From NCBI RefSeq assembly GCF_020034665.1, contig NZ_JAIQDI010000001.1:1612001-1676000 (forward strand): DNA of 64,000 nucleotides, given 5' to 3'. The notes under the pieces were generated by a model. That model searched no databases and was not told the origin of the DNA. It worked only from the letters and a program-made list of their open reading frames with translations. This DNA comes from Niabella beijingensis (lineage in GTDB: Bacteria > Bacteroidota > Bacteroidia > Chitinophagales > Chitinophagaceae). Both the position numbers and the translations under genes were made by a program. Positions 14,945-46,820 of the stretch are shown here, one piece after another. How positions within the stretch are numbered: position 1 is the stretch's first letter; every line of letters begins with the position of its first letter.

Positions 14945-16135
14945 TTATTGCAGAACAACCTTATTCTTATAAACAACAAGCCCTTGTACCAGGGTCGTTA
15001 TAATATTAATATTATCATCAAAAATCACCACATCTGCATCTTTACCAGCTTCCAGGCTTCCTTTCGTTTTGTCTATTCCCATGATCCGTGCGGGAGTTAA
15101 GGTCATCATCTTTACAGCCGCTGCCAATGGTATCTCCGCATCTTTTACAACCGTTCTTACCAGGCGATCGGCAGTAGCCACACTTCCTGCAAAAGCAGAC
15201 CGGTCCGGCAGTTTGGCAACGCCATCTTCAATGACCACTTTGAGACCGGCATTTATATTACCCAATATGCTTTCCCCTTCCGGCATACCTGCACCCCGCA
15301 TTGCATCTGTAATTAATGCAGTTCGTTCCGCTCCTTTTATTTTATAAATCAGTTTTAACAGCGGAGGAGGCAGGTGAATCCCATCGGCGATCGCTTCCAC
15401 ATCCATTTCATCTATTAAATAACCGGCCTCTATTGCTCCGGCATACCTGAAAGCGTTGCGCCGGGTCACCCCACTCATGGCGGAATAAAAATGAGTTGCC
15501 AGACTGTACCCATTGTTAAAGCCCTCCACTACTTCTTCATACAGGGCGTCTGTATGCGCCAGCGCTAATACCTTTCCTTTCGATTTTACATAGCGGCCAA
15601 ATTCAATGGCGCCCGGTAGTTCCGGAGCTGCGCTCCACCTGGCAATATCCTCCGAATATTCCAATATTTTCCGGTACTCCACGGGATCCGGGTTCCGGAT
15701 ATATTTGGGATCCTGCGCTCCTTTCTGGTTTATCGCAAAATAAGGGCCTTCCAGGTGCATGCCCATCAATTGCGCGCCCGTTCTATTTTGAGCTTTTGCT
15801 TCTTTAAAAGCGTCGAGTGTTATAAAAAGATCTTCAACTTCACTGGTTAGCGTCGTAGGGTACATCGCCGTAGTACCATACCGCGCATGCGTTCCGGCAG
15901 TGCCGATAAAAGCCTCCACTGTTCCATCCATAAAATCATAACCACCTCCACCGTGCACATGAATGTCGATAAAACCGGGTGAAACATAGTTGTCCCGGGC
16001 GTCTATGACCTCCTCACAGTAAACTTCAGGCAGTACTTCACTGATAGCTGTTATTTTTCCGTTATCAATTAATACGCTGCCTCCAGGGATGATCTTACCA
16101 GGTGTAATAATATTGCCATTGATAATTTTCAGCAT
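14945..16135 (-). CDS. nagA: N-acetylglucosamine-6-phosphate deacetylase
   Basis: A 396-residue amidohydrolase-superfamily enzyme removing acetate from GlcNAc-6-phosphate in the cytoplasm. Visible motifs are the metal-binding H59-x-H61 in DIHVHGGGG, the glutamate ligand in MHLEGPYF, histidines in LAHTD and THFYSAMSG, and the catalytic aspartate in ITDAMRGAG. Length is normal for the family. It is the last gene of the 32-kb utilization locus, 26 bp after the alpha/beta hydrolase gene, and complements the NagB-like deaminase near the beginning of the same run. It converges on the permease gene at 12511-14898. Confidence 0.93.
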   Translation of the reverse strand: MLKIINGNIITPGKIIPGGSVLIDNGKITAISEVLPEVYCEEVIDARDNYVSPGFIDIHVHGGGGYDFMDGTVEAFIGTAGTHARYGTTAMYPTTLTSEVEDLFITLDAFKEAKAQNRTGAQLMGMHLEGPYFAINQKGAQDPKYIRNPDPVEYRKILEYSEDIARWSAAPELPGAIEFGRYVKSKGKVLALAHTDALYEEVVEGFNNGYSLATHFYSAMSGVTRRNAFRYAGAIEAGYLIDEMDVEAIADGIHLPPPLLKLIYKIKGAERTALITDAMRGAGMPEGESILGNINAGLKVVIEDGVAKLPDRSAFAGSVATADRLVRTVVKDAEIPLAAAVKMMTLTPARIMGIDKTKGSLEAGKDADVVIFDDNINIITTLVQGLVVYKNKVVLQ

Positions 16136-16161
16136 GCGGCTCTTTTAATCATAAATGAGTT

Positions 16162-17073
16162 TTATTCAGAGGAGTGGCTGCTTTTGTCCCGCTTCGGAGC
16201 AGCTGCAAGATCAAAAATCTTTCTTATAAAGGATACCACTTCTTCACTTTTTTCGGTTTCAATGATCCTGTAAGCAGCATGCCCCTTACCTTCCATAATA
16301 TGAAATTCGGATAAACGGTTACCGGCTGCTGCCATTCGTTGCTGCAGGGCATGGGCATACGCTACATTAATTACCTTATCGCTGCTTCCGTGATACACCA
16401 ATACCGGTGGTGCATTTCTTTTAATTACGCTGGCATCCTCCAGGCCACCCCAGAAATCGATCACCCCGCTTATCTTCAGCGGGAGCGCGGGCTTTACGTA
16501 TGCAACATACAAGGCGGTCATGGCCCCCGCAGAACCACCGGAGATCATCATTTTCCCGGCATCCATTGAATAAAGTGCCGCATTATTTTTAAGCCATTGC
16601 ATCGCAAGCGCTACATCTCCGGCCGCCATCTCAATGGCTTTCTCAAGCTCCGGATGAAAATGTCCACCCGCCGGCAGCCCTTTGGCCATATTTGCCCCGG
16701 CGCTGGCTGCATCATTTTTATGGTACTTCAGATACAGCCGGTAATTGACCGCAACCACAGCGATCCCTGATTGCGCCAGTTTTTCACAGAGCGTTGCATT
16801 TCCCCGTTTATCACCGCCGGCAAATCCGCCGCCATGAACAAAGATCAGTACCGGCACTTTTCTTTCTGCCGGCTCCTGAGGAATATATAAATCGAGTGTT
16901 CTGTCACAGCTGGAATCCTTGTCAAAGGGCGCCGGAGGCAGGGGTGCGTACCGGATGTTTTTTATGCGTTTTACCGGGTTTCCCGCTGTTTGCGCCAATA
17001 AGACCACCGGAAAAAGCAGCGCGGCAGTGCTAAAAAACAGGCTACACATGATTGCTGATAGTTTAGAATACAT
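16162..17073 (-). CDS. Secreted alpha/beta-hydrolase, carboxylesterase type
   Basis: A 303-residue protein with a signal peptide (about 1-30). The oxyanion motif HGGGF is followed by the nucleophile elbow GGSAGA, the acid in HGSSDKV and the histidine in GKGHAAY, a complete Ser-Asp-His triad. This places it among hormone-sensitive-lipase/BD-FAE-like esterases that remove acetyl or aromatic acyl groups from sugars. It lies 11 bp after the preceding hydrolase gene and 26 bp before nagA. A role in de-esterifying the imported or surface glycan is likely; the acyl group is unknown. Confidence 0.85.
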   Translation of the reverse strand: MYSKLSAIMCSLFFSTAALLFPVVLLAQTAGNPVKRIKNIRYAPLPPAPFDKDSSCDRTLDLYIPQEPAERKVPVLIFVHGGGFAGGDKRGNATLCEKLAQSGIAVVAVNYRLYLKYHKNDAASAGANMAKGLPAGGHFHPELEKAIEMAAGDVALAMQWLKNNAALYSMDAGKMMISGGSAGAMTALYVAYVKPALPLKISGVIDFWGGLEDASVIKRNAPPVLVYHGSSDKVINVAYAHALQQRMAAAGNRLSEFHIMEGKGHAAYRIIETEKSEEVVSFIRKIFDLAAAPKRDKSSHSSE

Positions 17074-17084
17074 AGACGGATCTT

Positions 17085-18224
17085 TTATTTCTTAAGAAAA
17101 GAATCAAAAAAGAGATAGGCCGCTTCGTTGGACTCATCATTGGGGTCATGTTTGGGGCGGTTGGTCATGGCCACCCTGTTCGTGTAGCCCAATAAGGCAT
17201 TTACCCGAACCACCTGGTTGAGCGCTGTCCACCGGTCCACAGGGTCCGACGACCCGCCCGATACCAGGAACGGTCGTGGTGCCATCAGTGCCATGAGCTC
17301 ATGCAGGTCATAGCCTTCTTTGATCAACCGGGGATACAATCCTTTTGCATCTGCTGTGGATCCTGTTTTCCGCCAGGTATCTTTCCAGGGCGGCGGATAA
17401 TATCCCAAGTACCAGGGCTCCCAGTAATTGACAGCACTGCCCTTGGTATCATCAAATACCACACCGGGGTCCGACCATACGGCGCAGGCAAATTTATCAA
17501 ACAGACAGGAGGCGAACATGGCCCACTTTCCTCCGAATGAATGCCCCATGATCCCGATCCGCTTGTTATCAACATAAGGTAAATCGGCCAAAAGATACCA
17601 GGCGTTCGCAGCCGTATAAGCCAGCATCGATAAAGGTGCTACCGTTGCATTTTTTATAGACGGGTAATAAACAGAATAGGTACCTGCTTTTGAAGCCTCA
17701 GTAGTGCCTATCGACAAAGTAACATAGCCTCTCCTGGCCAGCTGGCAGGCAAAATCGCGGTTGGGTTTCCCCTTTCCAATGGCGGTTTCCGGTTCGTAAA
17801 ATGTTGTTATTACGGCCGGCAGTTTCCCCTTTGTTTGGGGTACGCACAGGTAAGCAATGGTTTTTTCAACGGGGGTCCAGTTAAACCGGATCCGGTACTG
17901 GATAAAGCCTTCCCTTTGTATAGAGTCCAGCAGCTCCATTTTCTGTTTTTTGATAAACGAGGGCCACCGGCCCATCATCCGGTGCCATGTGGTTTCTATT
18001 TCGGTCCTCCTCTTCTGCCATGCCTGTTTGGTCAGAACGGTGTCCCCGTTATAAAATCTTAACAGCGGCCGGTAAGGACCAAGATCATCCTTTAATGCAG
18101 CAGGAGGGTAAAAATACCGGGAGATACGATCATCGATCGTCTCCTTTGCTGATCGCTGACCATTCGCCGTATCCGTTATAACAACCATTAGCAGTAATAA
18201 GAGCAGTATACTTTTATTTTTCAT
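17085..18224 (-). CDS. Secreted alpha/beta-hydrolase of the prolyl-oligopeptidase / large esterase type
   Basis: A 379-residue exported protein (signal peptide about 1-22). The catalytic serine is in GHSFGGKWA, the acid in SGGSSDPVDRW and the histidine in NRPKHDPND. The large insert-rich fold and the GHSFGGK elbow resemble glucuronoyl-esterase (CE15) and acetyl-xylan-esterase-like enzymes from Bacteroidota rather than true peptidases. It is the third esterase-like enzyme of the locus, supporting a heavily acylated or ester-linked substrate. The exact family is uncertain. Confidence 0.75.
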   Translation of the reverse strand: MKNKSILLLLLLMVVITDTANGQRSAKETIDDRISRYFYPPAALKDDLGPYRPLLRFYNGDTVLTKQAWQKRRTEIETTWHRMMGRWPSFIKKQKMELLDSIQREGFIQYRIRFNWTPVEKTIAYLCVPQTKGKLPAVITTFYEPETAIGKGKPNRDFACQLARRGYVTLSIGTTEASKAGTYSVYYPSIKNATVAPLSMLAYTAANAWYLLADLPYVDNKRIGIMGHSFGGKWAMFASCLFDKFACAVWSDPGVVFDDTKGSAVNYWEPWYLGYYPPPWKDTWRKTGSTADAKGLYPRLIKEGYDLHELMALMAPRPFLVSGGSSDPVDRWTALNQVVRVNALLGYTNRVAMTNRPKHDPNDESNEAAYLFFDSFLKK

Positions 18225-18249
18225 ATCCGCTTTTAATATTCTGTTTTCC

Positions 18250-18354: not shown

Positions 18355-18386
18355 TTATCACTACCTATATCGGTCACTGGCTCGAT

Positions 18387-19442
18387 TTAGCTAAGCCCGG
18401 CCTCTTTCTCCAAAAATGCACGAACAAAATCCGTATCTGTTAAATGCGGATATTGTTGTATCACCCTTGTTATTTCATCTGCCTGGCCGGGTGAAAGTTT
18501 TTCTTCAGGATTAAGGCACCAGCGGCCTCTCATTAATCCGCCCCTTCTCAACACTTCATGAATACCGGCAATGGAGCCTTTGAACTGATGGGATGCATCA
18601 AAAACAGCTGCATTCATATCCGTTACGGCAACGCCCGTTGCCAATAAAGCGTCGGCATCTGCTGCGGCTTTGATCTGTGAAAAAAGGGATACGGAGGCGC
18701 GTGTCCATACGGAATAATGACCTAATAACCCGCCCGCAAACCGTTTTTCTATATTGCGTCCACCGATCGTAAAACGATACGGTGTTAAAAGATCTGCCAC
18801 AATATTATCATCGTTGCCGGTGTATAATGCAATTTCTTCAGCACGCGCTGATTCGCATACGGCCCGCACCACATCTAATGTCTGATACCGGTTGAAGGCC
18901 GCCACTTTGATGGCCATTACATTTTTTATTTCGCAAAATGCCTTCCAGAATTCATAACTCAATACGCGTCCGCCCACGGCAGGTTGCAGATAAAAACCAA
19001 ACAGTGGAATTTTATCCGCCACCTGCTGCGCATGCTGAATGAGTTCTTTTTCCGAAAGAGCATTCAGGCCGCCCATGCTCAACAGCCCCAGGTGGTACCC
19101 GTATTTAAGGGCCAACCCGGCCTCTTTTGTCGCCTGGGGAGCAGGCCCGCAAATACCGGCCACTTTTATAATAGTTCGTTGTTGCCTGTCTATTTCTTCC
19201 GCAGCTAACCGCAACACCGGTTCCAGATAATTAAACGCTGGTTGCCGTATTTCAAATTGTGTGGTATGTACGCCTACGGCCAATCCGCCTACACCACAGG
19301 CCAGGTAGTATCGTGTCAGGCGCCGCTGCGTTTCTTCATCTATTGTAAGGTCTTCGTGCAGTGCCAGGGGATGTGCCGGAATAAAAGCGCCCTGTTGCAG
19401 GGCTGTCCTTATCCCGGGCTGAAGTATCGTATGATCTGTCAT
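18387..19442 (-). CDS. Dihydrodipicolinate synthase/N-acetylneuraminate lyase-family aldolase, divergent subgroup
   Basis: A 351-residue TIM-barrel aldolase. The Schiff-base lysine is most likely K179 (MAIKVAAFN) and the catalytic tyrosine Y151 (GFYLQPA). The pyruvate-binding GxTGE motif of classical members is replaced by GVHTTQ (57-62), so it belongs to an uncharacterised branch. It is cytoplasmic, without a signal peptide. It starts 3 bp after the SDR gene, so the two probably act in sequence. It may split or form a 2-keto-3-deoxy sugar acid, or be a sialic-acid-lyase-like enzyme; neither can be decided here. Confidence 0.85.
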   Translation of the reverse strand: MTDHTILQPGIRTALQQGAFIPAHPLALHEDLTIDEETQRRLTRYYLACGVGGLAVGVHTTQFEIRQPAFNYLEPVLRLAAEEIDRQQRTIIKVAGICGPAPQATKEAGLALKYGYHLGLLSMGGLNALSEKELIQHAQQVADKIPLFGFYLQPAVGGRVLSYEFWKAFCEIKNVMAIKVAAFNRYQTLDVVRAVCESARAEEIALYTGNDDNIVADLLTPYRFTIGGRNIEKRFAGGLLGHYSVWTRASVSLFSQIKAAADADALLATGVAVTDMNAAVFDASHQFKGSIAGIHEVLRRGGLMRGRWCLNPEEKLSPGQADEITRVIQQYPHLTDTDFVRAFLEKEAGLS

Positions 19443-19445
19443 AAC

Positions 19446-20465
19446 TTAAAAAATTCCTTTTCGTTCCTGAAAATGGGTGGGTTTATCTAAGGTTGCGCCG
19501 CCCTCCTGTACCCAACGGGCAATAAGATGGGTCATTTGCGCTACGCTTACCTGCGGCTGCCCGAAGTAAGCTGCCGATTTTTGTGCGTTGCTCAGCAATG
19601 CCTCCGGTTGTTCAGTGCCGGTAAATTTTGGGATTTTGTCAAACAGTTTTCCAAAATTTTGGGCCATTCTTTTTACCGAAATGGTTTCTGTGCCGGTAAA
19701 GTTGATTATCCGGGCGGGCACAGAACAATGCATTAAAGAGCGGATCGCCATTTCGTTGGCATCACCCTGCCAAATAACGTTGACGTAGCCCATTGTCAGA
19801 TCGATTTCTTTTTCCTCATACACCGACTTCGCTATTTCAAGTAATACTCCGTAACTGACATCAACTGCATAGTTTAACCGGTAGATCAATACCGGCGTAT
19901 TATGTATCGATGAAAAATATTGAAAAAGACGCTCCCGTCCCAGGCAGGATTGCGCATATTCACCCAATGGTGCGGGAGCCGTTTCCTCCGTAGCCCCTCC
20001 CGATTCAATACCGGTAAACGGGTAAATATTTCCTGAAGAAAAAACGACAATGCGGGCTTTTTTATATTTTTCGGCCACGCGTCCCGCCAGATAGCTGTTC
20101 ATTGCCCAGGTGTAAGGTTCTTTTCCCGTAGTGCCAAATTTATGCCCTGCCATATAAATAACATTGTCCGCATCCGGCAGATCAAATAGTGCATCATCAT
20201 CCAGCAGGTCAGCTTTTATCAATTCAATGCCCGCTGCTGTAAGTTTTTCTGCTACTGCCTGATCTGAGAAACGAGACACTGCAATAATTTTGTTGGTACC
20301 ACCCGTCTTTTCTACCGCCTTACGCGCTATCAATGCCAGTGCAGGCCCCATTTTTCCACCGGCTCCCAATATGAGTATATCGCCTTTTATTTTCTGAACA
20401 TCATTTAACAGCGCTTCAGAAGGTTGTAATAAGTCAGCGAGGGTTTCTTCTTTTGTTTTTGTCAT
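19446..20465 (-). CDS. NAD-dependent epimerase/dehydratase-like extended SDR without the usual catalytic lysine
   Basis: A 339-residue Rossmann protein with the nucleotide-binding GAGGKMG at 34-40 and a serine-containing FSSGNIYPF strand at 142-150. The expected YxxxK catalytic pair is Y170-AQS-C174: the lysine is replaced by cysteine, although the surrounding LGRER segment aligns with known family members. It may still bind NAD(P) and catalyse a different step. It lies 30 bp after the sugar-dehydrogenase gene and 3 bp before the aldolase gene, within one transcript. Confidence 0.82.
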   Translation of the reverse strand: MTKTKEETLADLLQPSEALLNDVQKIKGDILILGAGGKMGPALALIARKAVEKTGGTNKIIAVSRFSDQAVAEKLTAAGIELIKADLLDDDALFDLPDADNVIYMAGHKFGTTGKEPYTWAMNSYLAGRVAEKYKKARIVVFSSGNIYPFTGIESGGATEETAPAPLGEYAQSCLGRERLFQYFSSIHNTPVLIYRLNYAVDVSYGVLLEIAKSVYEEKEIDLTMGYVNVIWQGDANEMAIRSLMHCSVPARIINFTGTETISVKRMAQNFGKLFDKIPKFTGTEQPEALLSNAQKSAAYFGQPQVSVAQMTHLIARWVQEGGATLDKPTHFQERKGIF

Positions 20466-20495: not shown

Positions 20496-22040
20496 TTAAT
20501 GTGATTTAGCGGCTCTGTATGCCTGTACCGCTTCTTTTGTTATGGAATCCTTATTATTGTTTCCCCAGCTCGACCGCACATAATTGAGTATGGCAGCAGC
20601 TTCATCATCATTCAGAAATTTAAAGGAAGGCATTTTTTCCTGTACTCCTTTTGTGCTTTTTCCCCATAAAAATACATCGATCAGATTACTTTTATTATGC
20701 ACTACGGGAGATGCGATGAGTGCGGGAAAAACACCCGGGCTTCCCGAGCCGTCCTGTTTATGACAGCCGGAGCAATAGACTTCGTACAGGCTGGCGACGT
20801 TTGCGCTACCAAGGATCCGCTCCGGTTTTTTTCCATGCAAGACCTCCGCCGAAATCTTTTTTACAGGGGTAATGCGCAATATTTTATCATCATCAGGTGC
20901 GGGATGACGGTAAGGGTTCCAATCCTTATTGCTGGTAGACAGGTATACATCTCCATCAGGCGATACACAAACGGCACGCAATCTGCCATAAACTTTATCC
21001 AGATAGATCGTTTCATCGGCAATGCGCGCTCCATTGGCAGACCGTTTTAATACCCGCAGGCTTCTGTCTTTTAAAGACACCAGCAGCAGGCTGTTTTTCC
21101 ACTCAGGAATCCGGCTGTTGTTATAAAAGGTTAAACCTGCAGGTGCAATAGTAGGTGTCCATGCCATTACCGGTTCGATAATCCGGGTGCCGCCGGCGAA
21201 TGCCTTTTCTGCATCGGTATCTGCAGCTCCTTCAATTTTATCCCAACCATAATTTCCTCCCTTTTGTACAATATTCACTTCATCGTCAGATGCATCCCCA
21301 TGCTCTGAAGTGTATAATAAATTGTTGCCGGAGAAAACCATTCCCTGTATATTTCTAAATCCGCGTGCCCATACCGGGCTGCCCGCTATCGGATTGTCCG
21401 AAGGAACTGTTCCATCTAGATTGAAACGCAATACCTTTCCTTTTAAATCCGCTGCGTCCAACGCCGCACCGCTTACAGCTCCATCCCCGGTAGCCCAGAA
21501 CAGCTTCTTATCTGCCGACAGAACGATCCTGCTTCCGAAATGCCCGCGGTACCCTGTTATAGTGCAAAAGGTTTTCGGACGCATCAATGTATCCTTCTCA
21601 ATCAGGTAACGTACCAGTTTTAACCCAACATTGTCTTTGTTTTTAAAAGAATAGGCAACAAATAAAAAAGACTCCGGGTTTTGGGTGTCGGAAGCAACAG
21701 CAACCATTCCCAAAAGTCCGGATGTATTTTTTTGATACACATCTTTTATCGCAAGCAGCAGTTTGGATTTTCCGGTTTTATGATCAATTTTGAAAATCCT
21801 GCCGTCCTGTTCATTATACCACAAGGTATTATCCGGTCCCCACATGAGCTCCCAGGGTACTTTATTATTTATTGATACCGCCTGTACGGCCAACAGTGTG
21901 GAATCCAGCTGTATGTTATATTGTGGTTTTATACTATCAAAACGCGTTTCCACAGAATACGTGCATTGAACTAAAATGCAGCTCAAAAAAATAACTGTTG
22001 AAGCAAAGGACAGGGTAAACTTGACGCTTGTCTTTTTCAT
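20496..22040 (-). CDS. Lipoprotein sugar dehydrogenase (glucose/sorbosone type) fused to a cytochrome c domain
   Basis: A 514-residue protein with a lipoprotein signal (lipobox LVQC, cysteine about 26). A six-bladed soluble glucose/sorbosone dehydrogenase-like propeller (about 50-395) includes GYRGHFGSRI and the conserved EHGDASDDEVN. A C-terminal cytochrome c domain has the heme motif CSGCH at 423-427 and a methionine ligand near 470 (KMPSF). It should oxidise a sugar in the periplasm and pass electrons through its own heme to the respiratory chain. Its neighbour NRAMP-like gene ends 3 bp before it, so translation is probably coupled. Confidence 0.9.
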   Translation of the reverse strand: MKKTSVKFTLSFASTVIFLSCILVQCTYSVETRFDSIKPQYNIQLDSTLLAVQAVSINNKVPWELMWGPDNTLWYNEQDGRIFKIDHKTGKSKLLLAIKDVYQKNTSGLLGMVAVASDTQNPESFLFVAYSFKNKDNVGLKLVRYLIEKDTLMRPKTFCTITGYRGHFGSRIVLSADKKLFWATGDGAVSGAALDAADLKGKVLRFNLDGTVPSDNPIAGSPVWARGFRNIQGMVFSGNNLLYTSEHGDASDDEVNIVQKGGNYGWDKIEGAADTDAEKAFAGGTRIIEPVMAWTPTIAPAGLTFYNNSRIPEWKNSLLLVSLKDRSLRVLKRSANGARIADETIYLDKVYGRLRAVCVSPDGDVYLSTSNKDWNPYRHPAPDDDKILRITPVKKISAEVLHGKKPERILGSANVASLYEVYCSGCHKQDGSGSPGVFPALIASPVVHNKSNLIDVFLWGKSTKGVQEKMPSFKFLNDDEAAAILNYVRSSWGNNNKDSITKEAVQAYRAAKSH

Positions 22041-22043: not shown

Positions 22044-23252
22044 TTAGCTTAAAAAAAGTTGACGGATATTTATTACAGCCAGACCAATAATAATAACCAG
22101 ACCAAGCAGCCCGGATACTCTGAAAAAAAGATTGTTCCTGTTCTGCCCCATTATTTTTTCGTCATTGGCAATCAGGTACATGGCGATGCCTATGGCCGGT
22201 GCAATAAAAATAGTAACGCTTTGCGCCAGAACAATGAGCTCCAACGGCAATTTGCCAAAAATCAGTGCAATGGCCGAACCAACGATCATCACCACAGTAA
22301 TAAGCACCCGCACACCACGGGAACTAAAATTATTTCCAAAACCCAATGCTTCCCCCAATAACGTGCCGCCAATGCTTGCCGTGCCGACAATGGACGAAAA
22401 AGCTGCGGCAAATAACCCGATTAAAAAAAGGCCGGCAGCGTAACTGCCAAAAACGGGTTGCAATGCCAGAGACATATCCGTAGCCGAGTTCACTACAATA
22501 CCTTTGGGATGCAATACCGCTGCTGCGCTGATAAGTACAATCGCGCTCAGCAGGCCCAACACGATGATACCGGTAACACTACCACTGCCTTTCAAATCCG
22601 AAGCAGCTCCGGTCCTCCTTCTTTCCTGTACCAAATAGGCATTATAAAACGCCCCTACAATAGAAAAACAGGAGGCCATAAAAGCAATGATCAGTCCGTG
22701 CGATCCTTCGGGCACAGCGGGTACAAACCCGTTAATAACGCCGCCCAGATCGGGTTTCGCAAAAAATAATGTAATCACAAAACACAGCAACATCAGCAGG
22801 ATGAGATAAATCATCAATTGCTCCAGTACTTTATAAAAACTCCGGAAAAATAACAGGGTTATGGCAATAAGCGTAAACAAAATAATCCAGATGGTTTTAG
22901 GCGTATGCGTAAGTTCGCCAATGGCGATGCCCACACCCACCGAGTTACCCGCCTGAAAAGATACACATACCAAAAAAACGCCGATACCCACTAATTTTCC
23001 AATTGTACGTCCCCATTTTTTGGTAATAGTTGCCAACAGCGACTGTTCTGTTGCCCTACCAATACGGGCTGCCATAGACGTAAAAAGGATCATGAAAAAT
23101 ATCGCCACCGCAATAATCCATAACAGGCTATAACCATATACCGCACCCAGTTTGGAAGTGATGGTCATTTTACTGGGGCCAAATACCAGCGCAGCTACAA
23201 TTAGTCCCGGCCCCAGGCTACGCAGCCATTTTAAGATCAGATTTTGTTTCAT
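22044..23252 (-). CDS. NRAMP-superfamily membrane transporter lacking the metal-binding motifs
   Basis: A 402-residue polytopic protein with about eleven helices and the overall NRAMP pattern. In helix 1 the canonical DPGN metal motif is replaced by GPSK (25-28). In helix 6 the canonical MPH motif is absent (GAFYNAYLVQ around 199-208). It is therefore unlikely to be an ordinary Mn/Fe symporter and may carry another ion or an organic solute. It follows a SusD remnant by 10 bp and is coupled to the sugar dehydrogenase gene, linking it to the utilization locus. Confidence 0.82.
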   Translation of the reverse strand: MKQNLILKWLRSLGPGLIVAALVFGPSKMTITSKLGAVYGYSLLWIIAVAIFFMILFTSMAARIGRATEQSLLATITKKWGRTIGKLVGIGVFLVCVSFQAGNSVGVGIAIGELTHTPKTIWIILFTLIAITLLFFRSFYKVLEQLMIYLILLMLLCFVITLFFAKPDLGGVINGFVPAVPEGSHGLIIAFMASCFSIVGAFYNAYLVQERRRTGAASDLKGSGSVTGIIVLGLLSAIVLISAAAVLHPKGIVVNSATDMSLALQPVFGSYAAGLFLIGLFAAAFSSIVGTASIGGTLLGEALGFGNNFSSRGVRVLITVVMIVGSAIALIFGKLPLELIVLAQSVTIFIAPAIGIAMYLIANDEKIMGQNRNNLFFRVSGLLGLVIIIGLAVINIRQLFLS

Positions 23253-29577: not shown

Positions 29578-29677
29578 CTGTTTATTTTTTATTGTTTTAA
29601 TGGTCAGATGGAATTCGCCAGTAATCATTCTTTTGGGTATAAAGAATTTGTACGGCTCATTTCATAATCATTAACTA

Positions 29678-32890: not shown

Positions 32891-32914
32891 TTGTAACAAG
32901 TTTTTCGTTTAGTA
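32761..32914 (-). repeat. 5' segment shared with the second susC gene (copy A)
   Basis: The leader CATTTGTAACAAG and the signal/early coding region of this susC match 37914-38066 at roughly four of five positions by eye, including non-coding bases just before the ATG. Similarity fades after the DEV(I/V)VVGYG motif. Confidence 0.6.
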
Positions 32915-38037: not shown

Positions 38038-38066
38038 TTGTAACAAGTTTTTTCGTTTAATATTCG
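37914..38066 (-). repeat. 5' segment shared with the first susC gene (copy B)
   Basis: Counterpart of 32761-32914. The block CATTTGTAACAAGTTTTTT followed by CGTTTA lies outside the coding region and is kept in both copies, so selection on the protein alone does not explain it. Confidence 0.6.
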
Positions 38067-38174: not shown

Positions 38175-39479
38175 CTACCTGATCATCTTAAGGTTGGTAT
38201 CAAAATCCGTGTAGTGATAGTAGTTCCCTGCCATCCAGAAAAGAACCGGCGTACGGCCCCGGCCCCTGCTTACCGCGTAGGGACGTATGTTATCCACCAC
38301 AGAACGGCTGGTAACAGAAATCCGTTGTGCTGCAGCTTCCGCTTTTAATGCTTCTATTTCAAACTTTCCGTTTATTTGCCGGGACAGATATATGTTTCCG
38401 GGGTTATCGTGATCGAGTACGATACCTCCCGAATAATGGGCTTCCAGTAATTTTTTTCCCGGTTTGATTATGGTCATATAAGGCCCCGCATCCGCGATCT
38501 TTTTTGTATTCCATTGATGTCCGTCCCATCGGGCATAGTAATACTGGTGCCTTGTTTCGGAAGGGTACCTTGCATAGGTAACCACCGGTCTGTTTGCAGC
38601 ATCCAGCGCGATATCCCATATCCAGCTCCGTGCCTTTCCCGCTGCCGGATCATATACTTTATCAACATCCCTGATCAGCACAGGCAGGTCTTTCAGCGTT
38701 CCGATTTTTTTTCCGTTTGTCTGAAAAAAAGCCCCCTTTTCATAATACATGTGATGTACCGAGATATCGGCGCCTTGTTTGGGATGCCCGTTCGTAAATA
38801 AGAAATCGATCCTCGATTTGTTATCGGTTGCATATTTTACGTACTGGGGTGTATTACGACCACTGTTGTCCAGAAGGTTCGCTTTCTTGCTCCAGGTAGC
38901 GCCGTAGTCATCACTGTAAATACAATAAATACCCGTTTCGCCCCAGGGCTGATTTATGCCGTTCTTCCGGCGAACGATATTCCTTCCAAAAAGATAGATC
39001 CGGTTGTGCTCATCCCGCAGCATAACGGGATTCATGTAGCAATAAAAATTAGCCGAATCTTTCTTCAGGATCACCCGTTCCTCTTCCCACGATGTGATAT
39101 CCTCCGGGTTCACCGTTTTACGCATAAAGATGTCGCCGTTGTGATGACAGTAAAATGTGAGCAGCCTGTGATCGGGCAGGAATAAAAAGGAAGGAACATC
39201 GTGATCATCTTTCTGCAGCTTTTCATGTAGTGTATATTCCTGCATTTTATTGGTGCGCAGCTCCAGTGACCGCACCATTACATCTCCTTCACTATTGATA
39301 TATCCAAAATACACCGCCTCCTTTTTTTCCTTGTGATATACCGCACGGGGGTCCGAAAACCAACACCAGGCGGCATCTTCCGCTGCTACCGTACTGGTCC
39401 GGGTATCCATCTCCTGTGCCCATGCAGATCCGGTTACAGAAAGCAGCGCCAGCAAAAAGACAAATAGACGACACTTCAT
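38175..39479 (-). CDS. Secreted BNR-repeat beta-propeller protein (BNR_4 type)
   Basis: A 434-residue exported protein counted from the ATG at 39479 (MKCRLFVFLL..., signal about 1-21); an upstream in-frame start at 39533 would prevent export. The body is a beta-propeller with AAWCWFSDPRA near the N-terminus and one clear Asp-box, SDDYGATW. BNR_4 proteins include polysaccharide lyases acting on ulvan-like glycans and uncharacterised hydrolases; sialidases have a related fold. It is the only candidate glycan-cleaving propeller of the locus. It lies between the NagB-like gene and susC. Confidence 0.82.
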   Translation of the reverse strand: MKCRLFVFLLALLSVTGSAWAQEMDTRTSTVAAEDAAWCWFSDPRAVYHKEKKEAVYFGYINSEGDVMVRSLELRTNKMQEYTLHEKLQKDDHDVPSFLFLPDHRLLTFYCHHNGDIFMRKTVNPEDITSWEEERVILKKDSANFYCYMNPVMLRDEHNRIYLFGRNIVRRKNGINQPWGETGIYCIYSDDYGATWSKKANLLDNSGRNTPQYVKYATDNKSRIDFLFTNGHPKQGADISVHHMYYEKGAFFQTNGKKIGTLKDLPVLIRDVDKVYDPAAGKARSWIWDIALDAANRPVVTYARYPSETRHQYYYARWDGHQWNTKKIADAGPYMTIIKPGKKLLEAHYSGGIVLDHDNPGNIYLSRQINGKFEIEALKAEAAAQRISVTSRSVVDNIRPYAVSRGRGRTPVLFWMAGNYYHYTDFDTNLKMIR

Positions 39480-39532
39480 ATATATAATTATTTGTTGTCT
39501 GTTATCCATCGGCTCATCATTCATCCGCACCA

Positions 39533-40318
39533 TTATTCTTTTGGTTGCAACAATTCGTCATCCAGCAACCGGGCACTTTCTTCATCCAAAAACACAAATG
39601 CATTGCGGTGTGTTCTTAAGATCGTAGAAGGATATAGTGGTGATAATGCTTTATAAAAAGTATTGTATACCGCCTGTGCCTTTGCGGCAGATGGAACAAT
39701 GCAGTACAAACTGGTTCCTTTCATCAATGCCGGAATGGTGAGCGTTAATGCCGTTGCCGGTACTGCTGCCAGTAACTCAAAACAGCCGTCATTCACCTGC
39801 TGCTGCCGGCAAATGCTGTCCAGCGTCACCACTTTGACCGTTTTGCTATCTTCAAAATCTGCAACAGGCGGGTCATTAAAAGCAAGATGCCCGTTCTCTC
39901 CAATACCTAAACATACGATATCGGGTAGGTTTTCCTTTACCAGTTGCGCATACCGGTCACATTCCGCATCCAGATCCGGCGCATTCCCATCTAAATAATA
40001 CACGGACCGAAATGGCTTCCTGGAAAACAACCTGTCTTTTAGAAAATTGCCGAACCCCTGCGGCGCATCGGCCGGCAGTCCCACATACTCATCCATATGA
40101 AAAGCGTTGATCCGTGTCCAGTCAATTTCCTGCAACAACAGGGCCTCCAGAAACTCGTTCTGAGAGGGCGCTGCCGCAAAAATGACACTCACCACTTCCT
40201 GTTGCTGAAGCAGCTGCCCGATCTGCCCGGCTACGGCAACCGCAGCCGCCTCACCCATTGCCTGGCGCGCAGGATATTTTTTTATACGCACTGTACTTTT
40301 TACTTCACCCATTTCCAT
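39533..40318 (-). CDS. nagB: Glucosamine-6-phosphate deaminase-like protein (NagB family)
   Basis: A 261-residue cytoplasmic protein of the NagB/6-phosphogluconolactonase superfamily. FHMDEYVGL carries the catalytic-base aspartate D76, and GIGENGHLAFNDP carries H144. The usual DGH triplet is NGH (N142) and the following glutamate is D149, so two secondary active-site positions differ from E. coli NagB. It may still deaminate glucosamine-6-phosphate or act on a related amino-sugar phosphate. It begins 49 bp after the MFS transporter gene. No sugar kinase is present nearby to supply its substrate. Confidence 0.85.
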   Translation of the reverse strand: MEMGEVKSTVRIKKYPARQAMGEAAAVAVAGQIGQLLQQQEVVSVIFAAAPSQNEFLEALLLQEIDWTRINAFHMDEYVGLPADAPQGFGNFLKDRLFSRKPFRSVYYLDGNAPDLDAECDRYAQLVKENLPDIVCLGIGENGHLAFNDPPVADFEDSKTVKVVTLDSICRQQQVNDGCFELLAAVPATALTLTIPALMKGTSLYCIVPSAAKAQAVYNTFYKALSPLYPSTILRTHRNAFVFLDEESARLLDDELLQPKE

Positions 40319-40367: not shown

Positions 40368-41696
40368 TCATCCGTTCCTGCTCAATTTTATTTCACCCCG
40401 CCGCCAGTTCCTGATCCTGTATCCCCGCACCGCATAAAAAATTAAATAGGCATAACAGGGAACCAGTATTCCGTATGCGGCACGAACATTGAAAACATCC
40501 GCAAAATAGCCATACACCAACGGCATGATGGCATTGCCGCAAAGTCCCATGATCATCAGCGATGCACCCAGTTTTGTAAAGCGTCCCAGTCCGTCCAGGG
40601 CCAGCGGCCAGATACCGGCCCATACCAGGGAATTGGCCAGTCCTAATAATACCAGGAACCATATGGAGACATCGGCCTGATGTCCCAATAGGGTAACCTG
40701 CCCCTTTGTAAAAAGGAGCAGTAAGGAAAAGAGCAACCCGAGAAAGGTGCATATCTTTAAAGCGGTACCCTGGCTAAAAAACCGGGGTATACAAATAATC
40801 CCGATCATATACCCGGTAATCGTGGCTGCCAATGTATAAGAGGGAAAGGACTTGGCTTCCAGCAGCTGGATGCCCATGCTCCCTGCATAATTGATAATGG
40901 TATCAATAGCAACAATCTGCGTTCCCACGTGTAAAAAAATAGCAACAGCCCCCAGCACCAGATGCGGAAACTGGAAAATGGAGGTCTTCCCCGAATTGGC
41001 CAGGGCCACGGTTCCGTTCTCCTCCTCCGTATTGATCTCGGGCAACGGAGAGTACCGTACCATGATCCCTAAAACAAAGAGCACACAGCCTACTACCGTA
41101 TAGGGTATGATCACTCTTCGGATCAGTTCATCCAACGCCGCCGCCTTCTGATCAGGAGCCATTGCGGGGATCTGCTGAAATAGTGCGGCGTCGGAAGACC
41201 GGAGAATAACTGCCGCAAAAATGAGCGGAGCCAGAATGCCGGCACCTTTATTACAGATACCCATAATACTGATCCGCTGAGCAGCTCGCTCCTTTGAACC
41301 CAGTATCGTGATATAGGGATTGGCTGCGGTTTGCATAATCGCAAGACCGGTTCCCAGTAAAAAAAGGCCTGTCAGGAAAAGGCCATAGGTACGGCTCAAT
41401 GCTGCCGGCACAAACATAAATGCCCCTGCCGCCATCACCCATAATGCAATCATCATTCCTTTTTTAAAACCCGTGCGCTTCAGAAGGTAGGATGAGGGAA
41501 CAGAGATCAGTAAATAGGAAATATAAAATGCCAGGGCCACCAGGTAGGATTGAAAATGGGTAAGCTCGCAGGCTATTTTAAAATAGGGGATCAGGATCGC
41601 ATTGATCCAGGAGACAAATCCAAAGATAAAAAACAGCACCCCTATGATCACCAGGGATACGACCGTATCTCTTTTACTTAACAGGCTTCCTTCCAT
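40368..41696 (-). CDS. Sugar MFS transporter of the FucP/GluP/NagP type
   Basis: A 442-residue inner-membrane protein with twelve predicted helices. The FHS-family hallmarks are FFIFGFVSWINAILIPYFK in helix 1 and QTAANPYITILG in helix 4. Such transporters bring fucose, glucose/galactose or, for NagP, N-acetylglucosamine across the inner membrane by proton symport. The adjacent nagB-like gene and the nagA gene at the end of the locus make an N-acetylated amino sugar the leading candidate. A hairpin lies just upstream. Confidence 0.9.
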   Translation of the reverse strand: MEGSLLSKRDTVVSLVIIGVLFFIFGFVSWINAILIPYFKIACELTHFQSYLVALAFYISYLLISVPSSYLLKRTGFKKGMMIALWVMAAGAFMFVPAALSRTYGLFLTGLFLLGTGLAIMQTAANPYITILGSKERAAQRISIMGICNKGAGILAPLIFAAVILRSSDAALFQQIPAMAPDQKAAALDELIRRVIIPYTVVGCVLFVLGIMVRYSPLPEINTEEENGTVALANSGKTSIFQFPHLVLGAVAIFLHVGTQIVAIDTIINYAGSMGIQLLEAKSFPSYTLAATITGYMIGIICIPRFFSQGTALKICTFLGLLFSLLLLFTKGQVTLLGHQADVSIWFLVLLGLANSLVWAGIWPLALDGLGRFTKLGASLMIMGLCGNAIMPLVYGYFADVFNVRAAYGILVPCYAYLIFYAVRGYRIRNWRRGEIKLSRNG

Positions 41697-41767
41697 TAGC
41701 GGTATTCTTTATCTGTAAAAAATTAATGACAAACCACTCCCATTACTGCTCCTGTCCGGAACAGTAT

Positions 41768-41792: not shown

Positions 41793-41826
41793 CGCTCTAT
41801 TTATAAAAATGGTTTATTTGCTTAAA

Positions 41827-43182
41827 TCATATATGCGGCTCCCAGCCTTTTTCATAACTGCGTCCCCACAACTTCATGGCCGCCGCATCGGAGCGTATGT
41901 GTCCGTTAGCGGGATCGGTCACAAGCATTCCGGAGGTTCGCTGTGCGATGTTACCCAACTGCACCAGCAAGGTACTTTTATATCCCTCCTGAATATCCGA
42001 ATGCAGGGTGGCATTGCCTTTTATGGCATCAAACAGATTCTGAAAATGAAACCCGTCCAGCTTTTCTGTTGGGTTCGACAAATCGCCGGCTTTAAATTCA
42101 GTAGTATCCTTTACTTCCTTTTGCAGCTTATTGTCGAGCCCGTAAATGCTGTAGCTGTTGCCGCCATTGATCTGCAGCGAGCCCTTTTCACCATAAAATA
42201 TTACACCTACGGAAGCGCCTTCGTTGTATTTGCCATTCGCACTGCGGCCCTCCCAGGTGATCATACTTTTATCAGCAAATTCTAAAGAAATCATTTGTGT
42301 GTCGGGTGTTTCCCAATCATCCGAAAAAGCAAAAGTTCCTCCGCTGGATTGTACCTTTGTAGGGTAATCCACCTGCAGGCCCCAGCGGGCCAGATCCACC
42401 ATATGCGTGCCATTATTCAGGGCTTCGCCGGTGCCCCAATGCCAGAACCAATGCCAGTTATAATGGATCAGATTATCCTTATAGGGTTTCCTGGGTGCAG
42501 GGCCCTGCCATAAATCATAATTCAGCCAGGTTGGAACTGCCGTAACTTTTCCGGTTCCAATTGGTTTACGACTATTCGTATACCAGGTTTTTGCAAAATA
42601 AGGTTTGCCGATAACGCCTTCGTGTATTTCTTTAATTGCTTGTGCCACATTGGGCCAGGAACGGCGCTGGTTACCCATCTGCAACACTTTGCCATATTTT
42701 TTCTGAGCCGCCACCAGCAACTCTCCTTCTCTTGGATTATGGCTGCAGGGTTTTTCCAGGTATACATGTTTACCGGCCTGCATCGCCAGCAGTGCTGCGG
42801 GTGCATGCCAGTGATCCGGAGCTGCTACCACCAGTACATCCAGGTCTTTTTTCTCCAGCGCTTTCCTGAAATCCGGCTGTGCCACCGGTTTAAAATGCTG
42901 GATCGTTTCCAAACGGGTTATGCATTTATCTGCAGCCCGCTGGTCCACATCACTTATATAGCGCACCAGGCAATTGGGCTGTTTGGCAAAGTTGCTGGCC
43001 AAAGCCAGTCCACGGCTGTTTACGCCCATTACGCCCACATTAAACTTTTCGTTGGCGCCCAAAATACTTTTATAACTACGGGCAGTAAATCCTGGCAAAA
43101 CACCTCCAACGGTAAGCGCTGCTGAACTTAAAATGGCTTTCTTTACAAAATCCCGTCTTGAATTGACTGGTTGTTTCTCCAT
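41827..43182 (-). CDS. Tat-exported Gfo/Idh/MocA-family oxidoreductase
   Basis: A 451-residue protein with a Tat signal (NSRRDFVKKA, hydrophobic to about residue 31). GVMGVNSRG marks the nucleotide-binding fold and VYLEKPCSH the EKP motif. A long C-terminal domain contains WHWFWHWGTGEALNNGTHM, whose histidines resemble the active-site region of exported family members. It is one of three consecutive Gfo/Idh genes behind the regulator, separated by only 10 bp from the next one, so a multi-step sugar oxidation/reduction scheme is plausible. Confidence 0.9.
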   Translation of the reverse strand: MEKQPVNSRRDFVKKAILSSAALTVGGVLPGFTARSYKSILGANEKFNVGVMGVNSRGLALASNFAKQPNCLVRYISDVDQRAADKCITRLETIQHFKPVAQPDFRKALEKKDLDVLVVAAPDHWHAPAALLAMQAGKHVYLEKPCSHNPREGELLVAAQKKYGKVLQMGNQRRSWPNVAQAIKEIHEGVIGKPYFAKTWYTNSRKPIGTGKVTAVPTWLNYDLWQGPAPRKPYKDNLIHYNWHWFWHWGTGEALNNGTHMVDLARWGLQVDYPTKVQSSGGTFAFSDDWETPDTQMISLEFADKSMITWEGRSANGKYNEGASVGVIFYGEKGSLQINGGNSYSIYGLDNKLQKEVKDTTEFKAGDLSNPTEKLDGFHFQNLFDAIKGNATLHSDIQEGYKSTLLVQLGNIAQRTSGMLVTDPANGHIRSDAAAMKLWGRSYEKGWEPHI

Positions 43183-43192
43183 AAACTAATTT

Positions 43193-44197: not shown

Positions 44198-44209
44198 AAA
44201 ATACGATCA

Positions 44210-45403
44210 TTATTTGTATCGGTCTTCCCATTTTTGTAAAATGCCTGATTCCGCCGCCGCATTACCCATATGCACTGCAATCGCCGTTTCTTTTCCTGTA
44301 TGTACATTGGAAACCGGCAGCTGGCCGTCCCGTACACTTTTTACAAAACCACGTAATGCAAAAGTGGTGGGCTCTGTTTTTTCGGTATCATTGAAAATCA
44401 CAATCCCCTCGCCCTTATTCAATACTTCCTTGGTAGCACCGGTAACCCCATCTACGATCATCTGCTCTTTTTTCAATTTTTCAGGAAACAGCAATGCACG
44501 GTCCCGTGTCATTTCAATAGTTCCGGTGCTTCCCAGGATTCTCGTAAGATATCCATTGTATTCATTACTTAAAACAGATACAATACTTGATTTTACGCCC
44601 CCTTCATAGTCATATATCACTCTCACATTATCGAAAGTAGTACGTCCGTCTCTCCAGAAATTAACATCGCCCATACCTATCGCTTTTAGAGGATGCCCGT
44701 CCTGCAGCCAGTTCACTATATCGATCTGGTGGGCGGAAAGCTCTGCCAGCGGACCTCCTGAAAACTCTTTATACATCCGCCAGTTCACCTGTTTTTCCAT
44801 AGATGGATCGGTTACAGGCCGGCGCCAGTCTGAGTTCCGGTTATACTGGCATTCATAATGTGTTACTTTCCCGATCAATCCGTCTGCAATAAGCTTTTTT
44901 ATTTTAGGGTACATTCCATAGTACCGGTATTGATGCCCTACCTGTATTATAATTTGGGGCCGACTTTCAGACAACGCTTCCAGCTTAAGTGCCTGATCGA
45001 TATCATAAGTCATCGTTTTTTCTACATAAATGTGCTTACCTGCTTCAATTGCATCCCTGGCTATCTGGTAATGCAGGTATAAAGGCGTTGCAATAATTAC
45101 CGCATCCACCGATCTATCCTGTATCAGTTTTTGATATTCCGGATATAATTTGGCATCGGGAACTACTGTCTTACACCGCTGTAAGTGGCTGTTGTCAATA
45201 TCACAACAGGCAGTTACTTTAGCACCATCAACCCTGGTAAGTAAATTCAGCAACCCCGATCCACGCTGACCAACGCCGATGAGCCCAATATTTACAGTAC
45301 TCTTAAAAATACCGGCCTTGCCAATCGATGGTCCTGCCAGAAAACCAGCGGTACCCAGGGAGCTGGCATATAAAAAATCTCTTCTTGTAAAATTTTTTCT
45401 CAT
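44210..45403 (-). CDS. Tat-exported Gfo/Idh/MocA-family oxidoreductase, first gene after the regulator
   Basis: A 397-residue protein with a Tat signal (FTRRDFLYASS). NIGLIGVGQRG is the cofactor loop. The conserved EKP is altered to EKT in IYVEKTMTYD; in this family that lysine normally helps catalysis and the proline shapes the loop, so the lysine is kept. The C-terminal domain includes ELSAHQIDIVNWL with a candidate active-site histidine. It is the first structural gene after the XylR-like regulator gene and likely opens the main transcript. Confidence 0.88.
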   Translation of the reverse strand: MRKNFTRRDFLYASSLGTAGFLAGPSIGKAGIFKSTVNIGLIGVGQRGSGLLNLLTRVDGAKVTACCDIDNSHLQRCKTVVPDAKLYPEYQKLIQDRSVDAVIIATPLYLHYQIARDAIEAGKHIYVEKTMTYDIDQALKLEALSESRPQIIIQVGHQYRYYGMYPKIKKLIADGLIGKVTHYECQYNRNSDWRRPVTDPSMEKQVNWRMYKEFSGGPLAELSAHQIDIVNWLQDGHPLKAIGMGDVNFWRDGRTTFDNVRVIYDYEGGVKSSIVSVLSNEYNGYLTRILGSTGTIEMTRDRALLFPEKLKKEQMIVDGVTGATKEVLNKGEGIVIFNDTEKTEPTTFALRGFVKSVRDGQLPVSNVHTGKETAIAVHMGNAAAESGILQKWEDRYK

Positions 45404-45659
45404 TTGATCTCTTGCGTAAATATATTATGGGTTGTTCCTGGAAGGCTTTCCGGCGCCCTCTTCACAACCGGACATTCGGCATACTCAGCCGGCATGTGCG
45501 TCTCATTCAATAATTCTATCCGTTATTTATGGCATCTAAATTCTAAAAGCAATCAAAGACGAGATCTCAAAAACTTCGCTTATCGTGGTATAAAATTAGA
45601 CTCCCTTCTAAAGATTTAATTATCGAATCACGCAATCCCTACTTCAAAAAACGCAAAAT
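45404..45659 (-). promoter_or_regulatory. Intergenic region likely holding the main promoter of the utilization locus
   Basis: A 256-bp gap separates the regulator gene from the first structural gene, the largest gap in the 32-kb run. No exact TAnnTTTG box was found on the minus strand; TAATTTTA (one mismatch) is the nearest. A GAGATCTC palindrome and AT-rich flanks are present. Assignment as a promoter rests on position, not on a motif. Confidence 0.35.
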
Positions 45660-46820
45660 TTACTTTTTCTCTGCAAATTTCTTCAGGTACTCCGTGGGCG
45701 TGCAGTTCATAAATTTTTTAAAGATACGAGACAGGTTGCGGGAATCACTAAAACCGGATCGTATAGCAAGATCCAATAAAGACAGTTCCGGATGGGTAAG
45801 CAAGAGGTTTGCAAGATGTTCTATGCGGCATTTTAAAATAAACTGATAAACAGAGACGCCCATTTCATTTTTAAACTTGGTTTCCAGGTTTCTTCTGGAT
45901 AAAGGCACCATACGGGTTAGCGCTTCAATGGAAAGTGCAGTGGTATAAGCAGACTCTATATATTGTACCAGTTCTCTTATATATTCATTAGCAACATTGT
46001 ATCTTTCTGTAGACTGCCTCAGCTCTATACGCACGGGGTTTACAATAACATTATGGGGCATCGTCCGTTTGTCTAAAACCAGCTGATGCAGCAGTCTTCC
46101 TACCTCATATCCGCCCTTTTCCACATCCAGTACAATGGAAGAGAGCGGTGGATCAGAAAGATTACAGATCAAGTCATCATTATCGACACCAAGCAGGGCT
46201 ATATCACCAGGGATCGAAATATTATTAAGCTTGCAAATGTCCGATACCTGCAGTGCAAAATAATCATCACATGCAAACAAGGCAACCGGCCTGGGAAGGC
46301 TCATGAGCCATTGGTTCAACCGTTCATACCCGCCGCCCCATTGCTCTTCGTTAAGATTCTCTGTTTCGAAATGGAAATACCTGCCACCCTGTTTTTCAAT
46401 TTCACTTCTGAATCCTTCGGCTCTTTCTATTGACCAAACCACATTTTTATTTCCGTAAAAAGCAAAATCCCGGTAGCGCCGTTGTATAAAAAACCGGGCA
46501 GCCATCACTCCTGTACCCCGATAATCGCCCGTCAAATTCGAAAAATAGTCGCTTCGCTCTTTATAGTTCTGAACAATTACCGGAATACCGAGGCCTTTAA
46601 GATAATTGACGTCATCACTGTCTGCCTGTGCAATTACCGCATCTGCTTTCCATTCCCTGACCGATTTCAGAACCCCTTTTTCTCCATATAAAGTTTTATA
46701 ATAAGGAGGCAGGCGATAGAACAACCATGGTCCGTAATCTTTTGAGTACTTTATCAGGCCCCTGAGCACCCTCCTACTGAATTTACTCGAATGATCGATC
46801 AATAGTAAAATCCGTATCAA
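45660..46820 (-). CDS. XylR-like transcriptional regulator (LacI-type sensor plus AraC DNA-binding domain)
   Basis: A 386-residue protein joining a periplasmic-binding-protein-like sugar sensor (about 1-275) to a C-terminal AraC-type double helix-turn-helix (about 285-384). The sensor contains ALFACDDYFALQV and IALLGVDNDD, typical of LacI/GalR sensors. The second helix-turn-helix reads LAIRSGFSDSRNLSRIFKK. The start is TTG at 46820, with an in-frame stop three codons upstream and no usable ATG nearby. It should sense a sugar or sugar derivative and activate the locus that follows on the same strand. Confidence 0.9.
   Translation of the reverse strand: MIRILLLIDHSSKFSRRVLRGLIKYSKDYGPWLFYRLPPYYKTLYGEKGVLKSVREWKADAVIAQADSDDVNYLKGLGIPVIVQNYKERSDYFSNLTGDYRGTGVMAARFFIQRRYRDFAFYGNKNVVWSIERAEGFRSEIEKQGGRYFHFETENLNEEQWGGGYERLNQWLMSLPRPVALFACDDYFALQVSDICKLNNISIPGDIALLGVDNDDLICNLSDPPLSSIVLDVEKGGYEVGRLLHQLVLDKRTMPHNVIVNPVRIELRQSTERYNVANEYIRELVQYIESAYTTALSIEALTRMVPLSRRNLETKFKNEMGVSVYQFILKCRIEHLANLLLTHPELSLLDLAIRSGFSDSRNLSRIFKKFMNCTPTEYLKKFAEKK

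Follow-up and report, generated by a model that had tools for sequence, protein, structure and literature searches.

The described systems closest to the locus reported here, a polysaccharide utilization locus (PUL) of 21 genes at positions 14945-46820 of the window (the whole 64,000-nucleotide stretch of Niabella beijingensis contig NZ_JAIQDI010000001.1 that was analysed), are the BNR_4 polysaccharide lyases (PLs) and their relatives, the 3-keto-glycoside pathway of Bacteroidota, a GalNAc locus of Bacteroides thetaiotaomicron and the oxidative chitin pathway ong. The 3-keto-glycoside pathway (BT2158) is reportedly the subject of a 2024 study by Nasseri et al. According to PMC11300592, BT2158 is a periplasmic glycoside 3-dehydrogenase and is required for disaccharide use. 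Among the lyases, the Pfam domain BNR_4 is stated for PL42 (FoRham1) and for the PL25 ulvan lyase (PLSV_3936), and the catalytic residues of PL25 are given as His123, Tyr188 and Arg204 with His143 neighbouring them (PMC8377490 and PMC13193363). PL24 is related to both families. The GH109-containing GalNAc locus BT4240-50 combines SusCD, an inner-membrane transporter and amino-sugar catabolism with GH2, GH109, an M60-like protease and a kinase (PMC11992087). The first three of these features are common to the locus of N. beijingensis, while domains of the last four were not reported among its 21 proteins.

The locus consists of 21 consecutive open reading frames (ORFs) on the minus strand, separated by intergenic gaps of at most 256 bases, in a genome of 6.59 Mb (the window lies on contig C1). 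All 21 proteins were scanned against Pfam and 19, the two SusD proteins excepted, against NCBIfam; RR-type leaders were judged by eye from the translations. From the regulator onwards, the features are:

45660..46820, minus strand: regulator with periplasmic-binding-protein-like domain and AraC helix-turn-helix (PF13377 and PF12833); counterpart in N. pedocola (L075) 78%
44210..45403, minus strand: GfoA, Gfo/Idh/MocA protein with RR leader (PF01408, 7.4e-19); not seen in N. pedocola L075/L158
43193..44197, minus strand: GfoB, Gfo/Idh/MocA protein with RR leader and GIIGLDTSH loop (PF01408, 2.5e-11)
41827..43182, minus strand: GfoC, Gfo/Idh/MocA protein with RR leader (PF19051/PF01408; BT_2158_fam; PDB 8tdf)
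40368..41696, minus strand: NagP-like FHS sugar permease (NF046060, 8e-110, under cut-off; TIGR01272 over cut-off)
39533..40318, minus strand: NagB-like protein (TIGR00502, 1.7e-34, under cut-off)
38175..39533, minus strand: BNR_4 protein, probable polysaccharide lyase (PF15892, 4.2e-35; profile match to PL25 5uam)
34933..38046, minus strand: SusC-like TonB-dependent transporter 1 (TIGR04056, 697.3 bits)
33070..34911, minus strand: SusD-like lipoprotein 1 (PF07980, 1.4e-43)
29678..32899, minus strand: SusC-like TonB-dependent transporter 2 (TIGR04056, 818.6 bits)
27859..29628, minus strand: SusD-like lipoprotein 2 (PF07980, 7.8e-49)
26253..27677, minus strand: GfoD, Gfo/Idh/MocA protein with RR leader (PF19051, 1.3e-24; BT_2158_fam; PDB 8tdf)
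24711..26099, minus strand: enolase-superfamily-like protein with RR leader (KxK, D, E, D, K residues; no Pfam match)
23403..24692, minus strand: AXE1-family esterase (PF05448, 2.6e-47)
22044..23252, minus strand: Nramp-family transporter (PF01566, 5.3e-69)
20496..22040, minus strand: PQQ (pyrroloquinoline quinone)-type sugar dehydrogenase (GSDH) fused to cytochrome c (PF07995, 6e-66, and PF13442)
19446..20465, minus strand: extended short-chain dehydrogenase/reductase (SDR; PF01370, 2.5e-7)
18387..19442, minus strand: DHDPS/NAL-family protein, probable class I aldolase (PF00701, 8.6e-9)
17085..18224, minus strand: alpha/beta hydrolase Est2 (PF00326, 1.3e-6; GCE_fung 26.1 bits, just below the cut-off of 27)
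16162..17073, minus strand: BD-FAE-like esterase (PF20434, 3.9e-24)
14945..16135, minus strand: NagA, GlcNAc-6-phosphate deacetylase (TIGR00221, 273.4 bits, cut-off 225.65)

Both scans agree with the single-strand gene list of the original prediction, which had been made from the letters and had missed the Nramp-family transporter. A regulator, SusC/SusD pairs and degradative enzymes lie on a single strand, the arrangement by which Bacteroidota PULs are recognized, and the PUL is real and well organised. Taken together, the regions L075 and L158 of N. pedocola contain 16 of these genes in identical order, and chance clustering is very unlikely because of this shared order, the single strand and the short gaps. 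The exact set of 21 genes was found in no other region fetched, and as far as the literature searched and the regions fetched show, the combination is new. The favoured reading, to which a probability of about 0.5 was given, is that the PUL targets an acylated uronate/amino-sugar glycan, which a BNR_4 lyase cuts and whose processing is partly oxidative. The glycan would hold an N-acetyl amino sugar and probably also a uronate.

The protein on which this reading turns, encoded at 38175-39533, scored 121.9 bits for the BNR_4 domain (cut-off 27.3) and belongs to a large BNR_4 group, with 990 proteins at E ≤ 0.001. It was aligned with 32 of 120 listed homologues, and a profile of its residues 92-190 was built from ten of the 33 aligned sequences. 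Searched against all PDB sequences, this profile produced four matches at E ≤ 10, no sialidase among them, headed by the two PL25 entries, 5uam and 5uas (E 0.06). For 5uam the E of the full sequence was 0.0034 and the i-E of the aligned domain by itself 1.1. Residues H111, H131, Y166 and R184 were aligned with His123, His143, Tyr188 and Arg204 of 5uam, that is, with the catalytic residues and the second histidine, and two aligners agreed on this. All four were invariant in the 33 aligned members and were retained in 17 of 17 additional homologues from the fetched loci with 28-88% identity (18 were BLAST-detectable, of which L076_3 was left out as the same protein as one of the aligned rows). 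The real 5uam stretch scored 24.9 bits and the best of 2000 shuffles (1779 scored) 7.8 bits, none equalling the real one, although the stretch shuffled had been selected for its match.

Besides the weakness of the 5uam domain match and the selection of the shuffled stretch, several results speak against a lyase. The PL25 substrate residues Asn122 and Lys125 are altered in the window protein (N122 to D110, K125 to V113), and the single-sequence PDB search found no lyase. In five remoter BNR_4 proteins with 18-21% identity the four residues are present, but Tyr and Arg have a spacing of 20, against 17-18 in the others, which makes the assignment of Arg less secure in these five. Sialidases outranked PL25 when the full-length profile was used (best 6.3e-7 vs 0.012), and one of them, 8ub5, covered positions 101-210, the same stretch as PL25, at 1.3e-5. 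In that search 8ub5 and 8um0 were each matched in one piece over 101-210, and four sialidase alignments were broken into several segments, each about 30-100 residues long and lying on Asp-box-type repeats. We judge the lyase reading, drawn from residues and profiles, to be the more probable one, with the sialidase-type reading as an alternative. Among PL24, PL25 and PL42 the profiles reached PL25 alone (E 0.012 and 0.0034), and whole-length similarity to members of all three families was very low; because the PL25 match is weak, the protein is called a probable lyase and is not assigned to a named PL family. Its gene is also set apart from PL25 by the Nag genes surrounding it.

The original prediction had called this protein, here identified by its domain as BNR_4, a BNR propeller and had seen no classical glycoside hydrolase in the locus. 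No glycoside-hydrolase Pfam family was indeed reported among the 21 proteins, but the implied lack of a glycan cleaver of a known type was not confirmed, since the protein keeps the PL25 residues; it is probably a lyase that was overlooked as the cutter.

The BNR_4 gene is scarce, being present in 6 of 294 family genomes at E ≤ 0.001 and in 7 of 395 genomes of the phylum at E ≤ 1e-60, the window's own counted in both. Its closest named relatives, with 87% identity each, are those of Niabella pedocola and a Niabella metagenome-assembled genome (MAG). In a Sphingobacteriales MAG (L077), a BNR_4 gene of about 60% identity is flanked on one side by a GSDH gene and on the other by a GH88-family gene, after which come GfoB and GfoC. 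The GH88 match has 47.2 bits (cut-off 26.6), and GH47 and GH127 matched that gene less well. GH88 enzymes act on the unsaturated uronate products of lyases; counting against a uronate lyase here, there is no GH88 gene in the window, and 13 over-cut-off matches lie elsewhere in the genome. Two further sets of BNR_4 proteins were seen. A second group, 18-21% identical (L052, L060, L061, L070 and L073), is accompanied by SusCD, GSDH, Nramp, SDR and DHDPS genes and by a protein of 651-671 amino acids whose representative had no Pfam match, and distant homologues in L086, L087 and L091 (34-36% by BLAST) have a C-terminal extension of about 350 residues.

The locus is unusual in encoding so many exported oxidising enzymes, and the exported Gfo/Idh dehydrogenases are what it has in common with the 3-keto-glycoside pathway. 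BT_2158_fam was the best NCBIfam model for GfoC (157.1 bits) and GfoD (140.8 bits), both scores lying far under its cut-off of 750. The closest solved structures of both proteins, 8tdf and 8tdh (8tdf at 5.1e-31 for GfoC; 3.9e-25 and 6e-25, respectively, for GfoD), are annotated merely as dehydrogenases, and 8tdi, by name a glucuronide-3-dehydrogenase, matched GfoD more weakly (1.1e-7). On this likeness of GfoC and GfoD to glycoside-3-dehydrogenase-type models rests the proposal that exported Gfo/Idh proteins break the glycan themselves, by C3 oxidation and elimination via 3-keto sugars, with the BNR_4 protein as a binding or accessory propeller. The tie of GfoB to amino-sugar genes would fit it too, as would the immediate adjacency of GfoB and GfoC in 9 of the 12 loci whose GfoC is at least 56% identical (a sample partly chosen for GfoB or NagB). 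The proposal is nevertheless considered unlikely. PF06439, the 3-keto-disaccharide hydrolase family, which we take to be DUF1080, is absent from the window, and 14 of its 16 genome matches exceed the cut-off, all of them elsewhere. No protein of PF01261, presumably the family of the sugar-phosphate-isomerase-like eliminase, was reported among the 21 in the general Pfam scan, and the BNR_4 protein retains the lyase residues. PMC9007349 and PMC10628242 describe DUF1080 proteins as putative 3'-ketolactose hydrolases and the eliminase, respectively. A complete 3-keto pathway within the locus was rejected because PF06439 is absent from the window; the locus differs from that pathway also in having NagA and a NagB-like protein. 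Of the original suggestions, 3-keto-sugar chemistry keeps the BT_2158 resemblance without the score or the hydrolase, and oxidation or elimination in place of hydrolysis as the cutting step is not supported, given the probable lyase in the operon and the missing partner families.

The same exported proteins had also been proposed to cleave glycosides in the manner of GH109, in which case one of them would be a NAD-recycling N-acetylhexosaminidase releasing the amino sugar. Their place in an amino-sugar locus would suit such an enzyme, and the GH109 structures 6t2b and 2ixa did match GfoD, though weakly (7.2e-8 and 1.6e-7), in the N-terminal part only and far behind 8tdf and 8tdh. Pfam, which presumably includes a GH109 model, gave no GH109-named family at E ≤ 10 for GfoA, GfoB, GfoC or GfoD, and no GH109 chain was among the 57 PDB matches of GfoC. 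Membership of GH109 was rejected for GfoC and GfoD on Pfam and PDB and for GfoA and GfoB on Pfam alone, and an activity of this kind is regarded as very improbable. GfoB is peculiar in its nucleotide loop, which reads GIIGLDTSH where GxGxxG is usual; 24 of 25 sequences share it exactly and the remaining one has Thr in place of Ser. GfoB may therefore use its cofactor in an uncommon way.

The link to amino sugars, claimed originally and upheld here by NagA, the NagB-like and NagP-like proteins and the position of GfoB near NagB-like genes, is drawn because NagA exceeds its cut-off and because of the neighbours found in other loci (GH20, NagB, NagP and MurQ-like genes). NagA passed the equivalog model TIGR00221, and its residues E129, H194, H215 and D277, which we take to be the metal and catalytic residues, were conserved in 8 of 8 sequences. 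D76, N142, H144 and D149 of the NagB-like protein were present in 17/17, K179 and Y151 of the DHDPS-family protein in 31/31 and the GHSFGGK motif of Est2 in 4/4. PDB searches matched the GSDH protein to 3a9g (9.4e-40) and the quinoprotein glucose dehydrogenase 8re0 (1.3e-36), and the DHDPS-family protein to the N-acetylneuraminate lyase 8u8w (2e-6). The enolase-superfamily call of the original prediction had no supporting Pfam match even at E ≤ 10, but the residues KxK, D, E, D, K, presumably the marks of the superfamily and of its MLE type, were conserved in 7/7 sequences. The gene adjoins DHDPS in L046, L047, L056, L160 and L163.

These enzymes could alternatively form an oxidative amino-sugar route, starting with oxidation of GlcNAc to its aldonate by the PQQ dehydrogenase, continuing with removal of the acetyl group by an amidohydrolase and ending with cleavage of the resulting deoxy-keto acid by the DHDPS-type aldolase. 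In 26 DHDPS neighbourhoods (Pfam of representatives), M20-family genes of one type were present in 17, GSDH in 6 and GH20 in 6, which is favourable to it, and a GlcNAc-aldonate route is known in marine bacteria (PMC9537276), so that a passage from oxidised amino sugar to deoxy-keto acid, as in ong, is conceivable here too. However, the operon has no M20 gene, the M20 gene nearby at 47734-49275 being a different one on the opposite strand, and the deacetylase OngB is described in the same paper as a relative of D-aminoacylase. The ong cluster has the pyridoxal-phosphate (PLP) deaminase OngC, the RidA protein OngD and the kinase KdgK, whereas none of the 21 proteins was reported by the Pfam scan to have a PLP-enzyme, RidA or sugar-kinase domain; an Ong-type pathway as such was rejected for this lack, and the route in general is judged improbable. 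The M20-family peptidase at 47734-49275 adjoins the regulator, and its type differs from the one frequent beside SDR-DHDPS elsewhere. Farther along, a Bacteroidales small SRP (signal recognition particle) RNA lies at 58622-58729 on the minus strand.

The comparison of gene order across Chitinophagaceae, proposed originally, showed both conservation and change. The five genes missing from the N. pedocola locus are GfoA, the enolase-like gene, Nramp, SDR and DHDPS, and a beta-helix gene is present there between SusD1 and SusC2. SDR and DHDPS occur together twice elsewhere in the N. pedocola genome, the first copy with GSDH, Nramp and SusCD, the second with the enolase-like gene, Nramp, GH20, a NagP-like gene and a presumably MurQ-like gene. 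Of the other regions, L159 contained no part of the locus, and L162, drawn from a contig whose length did not fit L078, was disregarded. Such a distribution, with DHDPS, SDR, Nramp and the enolase-like gene located elsewhere in that genome, could reflect a patchwork of separate units, in which five genes with a different role were inserted later into an older 16-gene PUL, or else gene loss on the side of N. pedocola. That history appears doubtful: the five genes are interleaved with the others on the same strand, GfoB is linked to DHDPS in other genomes, and none of the listed minus-strand terminator-like sites lies in the gaps between the 21 genes.

DHDPS was found in 35 of the 294 family genomes at E ≤ 0.001, and GfoB in 35 and the NagB-like gene in 33 at E ≤ 1e-60, each count including the window's own genome; in the GfoB and NagB searches no more than 7 or 8 candidates were scored for each genome. 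A proximity test used 32 of 37 DHDPS, 49 of 50 GfoB and 36 of 37 NagB rows, leaving out the window's own loci and the weak or partial DHDPS rows G107, G205:C538, G101 and G204. Among comparable loci, 9 of 21 had GfoB no more than 8 kb from a NagB-like gene, against an expectation of 0.15, and 9 of 22 had it equally close to DHDPS, against 0.10; the expectations assume uniform placement, and these odds are optimistic because shared ancestry is ignored. Counts in the regions L165-L180 are biased, as these had been selected for the presence of NagB or GfoB. GfoB is thus the hinge, and its proximity to both NagB-like and DHDPS genes shows that the parts of the locus belong to one functional network. 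SDR was adjacent to DHDPS in all 30 fetched 20-kb regions (among the earlier short loci, one of 30 DHDPS loci was without SDR, L017, which is ended by the contig end), and Nramp was present in 15 of the 26 DHDPS neighbourhoods. In four Niabella-group genomes (L160:4802-18850, L163, L046 and L047), the neighbours of Nramp-SDR-DHDPS-enolase are GH20, a MurQ-like gene and a DegT aminotransferase, joined in three of the genomes by a NagP-like gene, and this grouping is a possible muramic or amino-sugar locus.

Apart from the ancestry shared by these loci, a few more points reduce confidence in the PUL reading with a BNR_4 lyase. DHDPS lay within 8 kb of a NagB-like gene in merely 2 of 15 loci (0.05 expected). 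The NagB-like protein failed the equivalog threshold of NagB (119.3 bits, cut-off 236.9), the permease remained below that of the NagP model (367.7 bits, cut-off 625), and no sugar-kinase domain was reported for any of the 21 proteins. Promoter-like sites were no more numerous than expected by chance, and since some lie inside gaps, separate transcripts are possible.

In the favoured reading, esterases would take off acyl groups and the BNR_4 protein would break a 1,4-bond to uronate by His/Tyr/Arg beta-elimination, after which the SusCD pairs would import the resulting fragments. Exported GfoC and GfoD, with GfoB and GfoA, may oxidise or re-reduce a sugar hydroxyl, by analogy that of C3, and the PQQ dehydrogenase would hand electrons to cytochrome c. 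The amino sugar would enter via the NagP-like permease and pass to NagA and the NagB-like enzyme, and the SDR and the DHDPS-type aldolase may handle a deoxy-keto acid. Every substrate and reaction here is assigned from protein families; gene content, the 16-gene order, the lyase residues and the clustering of GfoB were observed directly. A bolder joint reading, rated as rather improbable, is that of a new PUL type in which a novel BNR_4 lyase family would cleave HexNAc-1,4-uronate bonds and thereby release the amino sugar directly. The N-acetylhexosamine would then pass through a periplasmic 3-keto intermediate, handled by a recurrent GfoB-GfoC-NagA-NagB cassette in which GfoB, with its GIIGLDTSH loop, would carry out a step new for Gfo proteins.

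The protein at 38175-39533 provides a concrete lyase candidate within the large BNR_4 group, and the apparent lack of a glycoside hydrolase in this PUL probably means an unrecognised propeller lyase, as far as residues and profiles can tell. In the bacterial family studied, the gene of an exported Gfo/Idh enzyme recurs in the company of genes for amino-sugar catabolism. The cassette of exported oxidoreductases and amino-sugar genes is recurrent in related bacteria and is not random cargo, since GfoB stands near NagB-like and DHDPS genes far more often than expected. Should the cassette indeed act on amino sugars by oxidation of C3, it would extend to N-acetylhexosamines an oxidative glycan pathway that was described recently.

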